Positions 1-44,870 of a stretch of 64,000 nt of DNA are shown piece after piece. The notes under the pieces are model-generated. The model worked only from the letters and a program-made list of their open reading frames with translations, had not been told where the DNA came from and made no database searches. The position numbers and the translations under genes are program-made. The DNA lies in NCBI GenBank assembly GCA_947459215.1, contig CANHCQ010000001.1:1-64000 (forward strand), given 5' to 3'. Position 1 is the first letter of the stretch. Each line of letters starts with the position of its first letter. The DNA is from Phycisphaerales bacterium. Its GTDB lineage: Bacteria > Planctomycetota > Phycisphaerae > Phycisphaerales > UBA1924.

Positions 1-52
1 CCTTGCTGACGTCGATGCCGACAACCGGTGCGGACGAAGGAACCAAAGACAT
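1..52 (-). CDS. IS110-family transposase, N-terminus only (runs off left edge)
   Basis: The minus strand reads from an ATG at 52-50 into a peptide whose visible 17 residues end in VVGIDVSK. This is the usual opening of the IS110 DEDD transposase, where the Asp in GIDVSK is the first acidic catalytic residue of the RuvC-like fold. Only about 4% of a normal 300-400 aa transposase is inside the window, so its integrity cannot be judged. The long upstream non-coding stretch fits an IS110-group element, in which the bridge RNA precedes the transposase gene. The family call rests on one short motif plus the plausible start. Confidence 0.7.
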   Translation of the reverse strand, partial: MSLVPSSAPVVGIDVSK

Positions 53-240
53 GCGGGCCATTCCCTTCCTTGCCGATGCGGACTTGACCGGGCGTGAACG
101 CCCCGCCAGCGGTGCGGGATCGGGCCGACAAAGACCGGGCCGGGATCGAGCTCTCCCACGGCGTGCGACGCCGGAGGACGAAAGATCTCGCGGCCCAGAG
201 GCTGCGCGAGCCGCCAACGACGGCTCATGTTCAGGATACA
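1..240 (-). mobile_element. Partial IS110-family insertion sequence, non-coding end
   Basis: The minus strand at the left edge carries the start of an IS110-type transposase (52 to 1). The stretch upstream of it, 53 to about 240, would be the element's non-coding end. It holds three short hairpins: GGGCG/CGCCC at 90-103, CGGCGT/ACGCCG at 159-173, and a CTCGCG/CGCGAG stem at 187-210 with an inner GCC/GGC pair. In the IS110 group this non-coding end is known to encode the bridge RNA that guides integration. Assigning it here is an inference. The outer boundary near 240 is placed where similarity to a second copy of a palindromic repeat (44731 onward) begins. These elements lack ordinary terminal inverted repeats, so the border is approximate. 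Confidence 0.5.
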
Positions 241-389
241 AGGACGATCTGAGGCAATGCCTCAGATCAGGTGAGGGGATTGCGGGCACCCCGCCGCGGC
301 CGCATCCGAACGCAAAGCGCCCCTCCCCGGTCTCGGCCCTTCAGGGGCCTCGACCACGCCTCCCCGCTGCGCGGGGCGAGGAGGCGCGT
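241..389. repeat. Palindromic repeat family R2, copy 1
   Basis: This stretch begins with a perfect palindrome, GATCTGAGGCA / TGCCTCAGATC, at 246-268. It continues with CAGGTGAGGGG, a CCCCTCCCCGGTCTCG block (319-335) and a CCCCGC hairpin near 362-375. The same blocks in the same order occur at 44731-44870. The palindrome arms differ between copies by paired changes, so the structure is kept. Copy 1 lacks the left-hand hairpin that precedes copy 2 and instead abuts the presumed IS110 end. Confidence 0.8.
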
Positions 390-402
390 GGGGATGAGAC
401 GT

Positions 403-3927: not shown

Positions 3928-7023
<3,096 letters not shown>

Positions 7024-44706: not shown

Positions 44707-44870
44707 CCTCCTCTCCCCGCCTGCGGGGAGAGGACGACTTGAGGCAAAGCCTCAAGTCAGGTGAGGGGACTGCGGGTACCTGAACGCTGAGACTCCCAAA
44801 CGCCCAACACCCCTCCCCGGTCTCGCCGCGCACGACCACACGTCCCCGCTGCGCGGCGTCGGGACGCGCG
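44707..44870. repeat. Palindromic repeat family R2, copy 2
   Basis: It opens with a CCTCTCCCCGC / GCGGGGAGAGG hairpin (about 44709-44733). Then come the palindrome GACTTGAGGC-AAA-GCCTCAAGTC (44736-44758), CAGGTGAGGGG, CCCCTCCCCGGTCTCG and a final GTCCCCGCTGCGCGGCGTCGGGAC block. Copy 1 is at 241-389. The rodA-MFS spacer (389 bp) consists mostly of this copy plus an R3 hairpin, and holds no gene. Confidence 0.85.

Follow-up and report, generated by a model that had tools for sequence, protein, structure and literature searches.

An IS110-group element with a probable bridge RNA, inserted in the R2 palindromic repeat of a Phycisphaerales bacterium

The element end at the start of the contig

The window, i.e., the whole 64,000-nucleotide stretch analyzed here, consists of bases 1-64000 of contig C1 from a 47-contig draft genome of a Phycisphaerales bacterium. 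The contig opens inside an insertion sequence of the IS110 group, and positions 1-242 represent the left end (LE) of this element, with all of its features on the minus strand. The start of an IS110-type recombinase gene occupies positions 1-52; translation from 52 to 2 gives 17 codons (MSLVPSSAPVVGIDVSK), and the remainder lies off the contig. Upstream of the start codon, LE comprises 188 non-coding nucleotides (53-240), and the region assigned to a bridge RNA covers positions 45-240. The right donor CTTGTAT (236-242), which is kept in nearly all relatives, includes the CT core dinucleotide (241-242) common to LE, the right end (RE) and the target. A putative −10 box, TATCCT (233-238), belongs to a promoter split across the RE-LE junction, with the −35 hexamer TTGATT located in RE at 17-bp spacing.

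The core dinucleotide is also the boundary between the element and a copy of the R2 repeat. Homology to other R2 copies shows that positions 243-393 (plus strand) are the remainder of a copy split by the element, and a complete, unoccupied copy is present at 44707-44870 (plus strand), whose minus strand carries the target word TCGTCCTCTCCC without mismatch at 44726-44737. A first reading of the letters alone (hereafter, the sequence-only reading) had proposed that the element meets the first R2 copy exactly where the homology begins and that this copy lacks the left hairpin. Both proposals are borne out: the junction falls at 241-242, and the hairpin is intact in the second copy at about 44710-44733.

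The architecture of the element is that of the IS110 group, which combines a long non-coding left end with a short right end; RE measures only about 20 nt from the stop codon to the core. In the IS1111 arrangement, the long non-coding stretch follows the transposase gene, whereas the long end of this element lies upstream. Subterminal inverted repeats of 7-17 bp, another IS1111 trait, were not evident by eye when LE (TGTATCCTGAACATG) was compared with RE (TTCTCAAGACAGTCG).

Recombinases of the IS110 group are of the DEDD (RuvC-like) type and carry the domains PF01548 and PF02371. The assembled recombinase of the element is limited to 17 N-terminal and 40 C-terminal residues, both matching the IS110 type. 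A search of the genome for PF01548 gave no match; the interior of the recombinase is absent, and only C-terminal fragments occur at contig ends. Repeats that are nearly identical would be predicted to leave such a gap in a draft assembly, and it takes in the catalytic residues of the element. Among the relatives, the closest one whose gene is intact, L042 (4365-5330), encodes a protein of 321 amino acids that carries PF01548 and PF02371 and matches the IS621 and ISCro4 proteins of known structure. The transposase start that the sequence-only reading had placed at 52-1 is confirmed. We infer that an IS110-type recombinase gene fills the unassembled interior between the two ends.

Six copies at the same base of R2

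The genome has six copies of LE (on C1, C5, C33 and C34, and at both ends of C26). Each lies at the end of a contig, and the base at which it joins R2 never varies. Six copies of the recombinase C-terminus, RLVAAGKPKKLALIATLRKLLVTLNAILRTNQPWRTARAA followed by the stop codon, are likewise present, one at the start of each of the contigs C6, C2, C13, C9, C19 and C31. Behind each come the right end TCTCAAGACAGTCG-CT and, next to it, the R2 hairpin half CTCCCCGCNNGCGGGGAGAGGAG. Synteny with G138, a genome of the same genus with about 90% identity, allowed all six left and right ends to be paired by their flanks: C1-C6, C34-C31, C5-C13, C26 end-C9, C33-C2, and C26 start-C19, the last of which relies on a weak 47-base match together with the alignment of the joined flanks. 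Thus, the missing half of the first R2 copy, which had been predicted to lie on the far side of the element, is present on C6, and all twelve ends are located in R2. Insertion of the element explains the breaks of the draft assembly at these twelve contig ends beside R2 repeats.

When the flanks are joined at the CT core, a full R2 is restored in each of the six pairs, with TCGTC-CT-CTCCC around the shared core. The core is present at both ends of all six copies, with no further target duplication. The insertion point is the foot of the 5' arm of the R2 hairpin (C-CT|CTCCCC), leaving an 8-bp stem. The earlier suggestion that the element entered an R2 hairpin is therefore correct as regards the repeat but has to be refined as regards the break itself, which is at the foot of this arm.

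An unoccupied counterpart, which the sequence-only reading had suggested comparing in a relative, was found at the C26-C9 locus, where G138 aligns without a break over ~1.3 kb through an intact R2 (TCGTCCTCTCCCCGCAAGCGGGGAGAGG). At the other five of the six orthologous loci, R2 is absent from G138 (L178, L195, L196, L198 and L199, compared with the loci of the genome under study), which implies that R2 itself comes and goes; the repeat may be able to move or be readily lost. At these five loci, the presence of R2 and the insertion of the element are inseparable in time. This would agree with a joint spread of the two, in which R2 is part of the element or the copies arose by recombination between repeats, with no choice of site by a guide. 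Such an explanation is nevertheless highly improbable. It is largely refuted by the intact, element-free R2 of G138 at the sixth locus, and the R2 sequences around the six copies differ from one another. Furthermore, at least 29 R2 target sites carry no element: the 12-base target word TCGTCCTCTCCC is found perfectly matched and unoccupied at 29 places in the genome, compared with none for a reversed-pattern control. The fit between guide and target described below also extends to relatives that are inserted outside R2.

Several features of R2 itself were observed at and around these loci. At the C34-C31 locus, G138 lacks a unit of ~200 bp and has 17 bp in its place. The two genes that flank R2 and the element in the genome under study are separated in G138 by another palindromic repeat, also distinct in sequence and rich in G+C (L178, 2625-2773). 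Outside the window, this genome has two Y1-type (PF01797) transposase genes (G000:C1:65497-65832 and C1:259819-260163). The PF01797 family includes REP-associated transposases, and R2-like pieces lie within ~1.4 kb of the first gene. Mobilization of R2 by these transposases is not claimed, as no complete R2 directly adjoins either gene.

Structure and guides of the predicted bridge RNA

A covariance model (R1) was derived from the left ends of 23 relatives, with those of the window, L042 and L043 excluded, and it contains at least one double compensatory change in 15 of 23 pairs. The model matched the window at 45-203 on the minus strand with 50.3 bits and an E value of 3e-11. The next match in the 64 kb (6243-6346, minus strand, 13.2 bits) had an E value of 0.05 and is probably due to chance. 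The folding energy of the single sequence was no better than that of dinucleotide shuffles (z −0.43) and was not used as evidence; hairpins alone are thus weak evidence, and it is the comparative evidence that lifts the case above chance. A search of the left-end region against Rfam returned nothing above threshold. No match was obtained in a plasmid collection (blastn) or in viral contigs (exact target-loop pattern).

In the predicted RNA, a 5' stem-loop (GAGCCGTCGTTGGCGGCTC, 208-226) precedes the target loop, which in turn precedes the donor loop. The target-loop stem is formed by GGGCCGCGAGATC (184-196) and GATCCCGGCCC (137-147), which pair in the covariance model, and it encloses the left target guide (LTG; UUUCGUCCU, 175-183), an apical stem-loop (159-174) and the right target guide (RTG; GGGAGAG, 151-157). 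The donor-loop stem is formed by GGCCCGATCCC (116-126) and GGGAATGGCC (56-65), again according to the covariance model, and it encloses the left donor guide (LDG) position (106-114), an apical stem (GGGCGTTCACGCCC, 90-103) and the right donor guide AU-CG-GCAAG (69-77), which is split as in IS621. Of the three hairpins listed by the sequence-only reading, the one at 90-103 is the apical stem of the donor loop and the one at 159-173 that of the target loop. The hairpin at 187-210 has no place in the conserved fold: 184-196 pairs with 137-147 in the target-loop stem, and 208-226 forms the separate 5' stem-loop. The ends of the relatives are recognizable by the same signals, namely, CTTGTAT before the gene, the left donor ACAGTYG or variants after it, and CT cores. 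Their left ends share the order target guide, apical stem, CCGU-N5-AG (containing RTG), own left donor copy and GCAAGG.

LTG (183-175) matches AGTCGTC-CT at 7 of 9 positions, with UCGUCCU corresponding to the left target of R2 and the core, while RTG (157-151) is complementary to CT-CTCCC at all 7 positions. Together, the two guides cover an unbroken 12-base stretch of R2, TCGTC-CT-CTCCC, matching it on both strands. Along with the covariance match, this fit upholds the earlier proposal of a bridge RNA upstream of the transposase gene. In a permutation test over 39 elements, the fit of guides to their own targets or donors far exceeded that of permuted guides, with z values of 14.4 for RTG (27 perfect), 7.5 for LTG and 9.3 for LDG and none of 50,000 permutations scoring as well; these values treat related elements as independent, a minor caveat given the size of the effect. 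The test, an anchored scan, is conservative because a few anchors are wrong (RTG of L093, L102 and L127).

The position of the insertions leaves room for a different kind of recognition, in which the protein would read the hairpin or cruciform shape of the R2 palindrome and the guide match would be secondary. In R2, the insertions do lie at a hairpin foot, and the relatives L130, L131 and L102 are located beside palindromes. Yet most relatives insert away from strong palindromes, with a stem of at least 7 at the right flank in 5 of 40 cases (3.5% in control windows), and the guide fit is strong throughout. Recognition by shape is accordingly very unlikely. The difference from the control is modest, and no general palindrome enrichment at the targets of this clade is claimed.

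Our preferred reading, to which we assign a probability of about 0.95, is that the left end encodes a bridge RNA that guides an IS621-type IS110 element into R2 at the shared CT core. It is based on what can be read at the nucleotide level, namely, the junctions, the confinement of all six copies to R2, the empty site, the guide fit across relatives and the conserved RNA structure.

The donor side of the window copy is unusual. The right donor guide fits the joined ends of the element, as does LDG in the C5 and C26 copies (CACAGTCGCC), whereas LDG of the window copy (CACCGCTGG) does not and has the lowest donor-guide score of the 39 elements. The window copy may have been crippled, its LDG having lost the donor match by a change consistent with the loss of AGT from ACAGTCGC; it would then be mobile only if another copy supplied the bridge RNA. 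This has slightly less than an even chance. The paired right end on C6 keeps the donor ACAGTCG-CT while the guide is read as CACCGCTGG in place of CACAGTCGCC, and the IS621 bridge RNA works in trans. On the other hand, bases 1-111 are unique to the tip of C1 and start exactly where this tip departs from the other copies. A window copy unable to direct its own excision and a chimeric origin of contig bases 1-111 are about equally possible.

Proposed insertion route and relation to known elements

We infer transcription, circle formation and catalysis as the steps that would lead to the observed insertions. The element would circularize to give an RE-LE junction of the expected sequence GACAGTCG-CT-TGTATCC, and the joined ends would form a promoter driving the bridge RNA from the left end. 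Joining RE and LE in silico gives TTGATT-17 bp-TATCCT, and most of 43 junctions have conserved a TTGAC-like hexamer at this same 17-bp distance from TAT. The first internal loop would use UUUCGUCCU and GGGAGAG to pair with TCGTC-CT-CTCCC, on both strands, at the base of the R2 hairpin; the second would pair with the joined ends of the element itself. The recombinase would then exchange strands at the CT core, so that R2 is split with no loss of target and a 2-bp core is left at each end.

To date, bridge or seek RNAs have been reported to explain the site choice of IS110 elements (PMC11208160, PMC11187229), and the RE-LE junction of IS621 has been reported to carry a natural promoter (PMC11208160). 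IS621 of E. coli (PMC11208160, PMC11208158) shares with the present element the CT core, the right donor CTTGTAT, the split right donor guide AU-NN-GCAAG, a bridge RNA in the left end with the target loop before the donor loop, the split junction promoter and a REP-type palindromic target. In addition, the recombinase of L042, a relative, matches the solved IS621 protein. The two elements differ in target, left donor, the length of RTG (7 nt in the window element versus 4), host and recombinase, which is only distantly related. All copies of ISPpu9 (7/7), ISPpu10 (7/7), ISPa11 (6/6) and ISRm19 (4/4) are reported to be located in REPs (PMC1525189); these elements resemble the present one in that all or nearly all copies lie at one spot of a dispersed palindromic repeat, although hosts and repeats are different. 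Thus, REP-targeting IS110 elements are already known (IS621, ISPpu9/10, ISPa11), and what is new is the host group, with bridge-RNA-guided, REP-targeting transposition extended to Phycisphaerales, and the matched rewriting of the guides.

Similar sites are used by other IS110 relatives. L131, L102, L163 and L130 are also inserted at CTCTCCC- or TCTCCC-type sites, several of them at the foot of a hairpin. L130, from Rhizobium sp. FY34, has the same RTG (GGGAG-AG) and lies at the base of a CTCTCCCCG...CGGGGAGAG hairpin, but its left target and left guide are unlike those of the window element, and its recombinase is 52% identical to that of L042. The right guide shared at CTCTCCC by the window element, L130 and L163 is suggestive of convergence, the cases being few.

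The Phycisphaerales sisters L042 and L043, which are relatives at the family level, have matches in public contigs, namely, L087 (VGXM01000010.1) and L085 (JADYYE010000080.1). Their left ends are 75-76% identical to that of the window, and they have the same right donor TGTATC, left donor ACAGTCG and RNA layout, with unchanged donor guides. In contrast, their target guides are C-rich, their insertions are in C-runs, and the left core is CC instead of CT. Guides and sites differ in a matched fashion, indicating that target loop and target changed together, a natural guide rewrite between left ends of ~76% identity. A broader view is tentatively put forward: among close relatives, natural rewriting would affect the target loops and spare the donor side, and elements from distant phyla (Phycisphaerales, L130 of Rhizobium and L163 of Zipacnadia) would independently use the same RTG at CTCTCCC sites, two of the three at the foot of a CTCTCCCC hairpin, so that repeats of this kind would repeatedly serve as safe places to land. 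Pairs of guide and target in which the right guide measures 7 nt form a ready set for tests of programmable recombinases. In L042 (~4148) and L043 (~3827), the left cores read CC-TGTATC and the right cores CT, so that either the core itself varies or a single base of the C-run target has changed.
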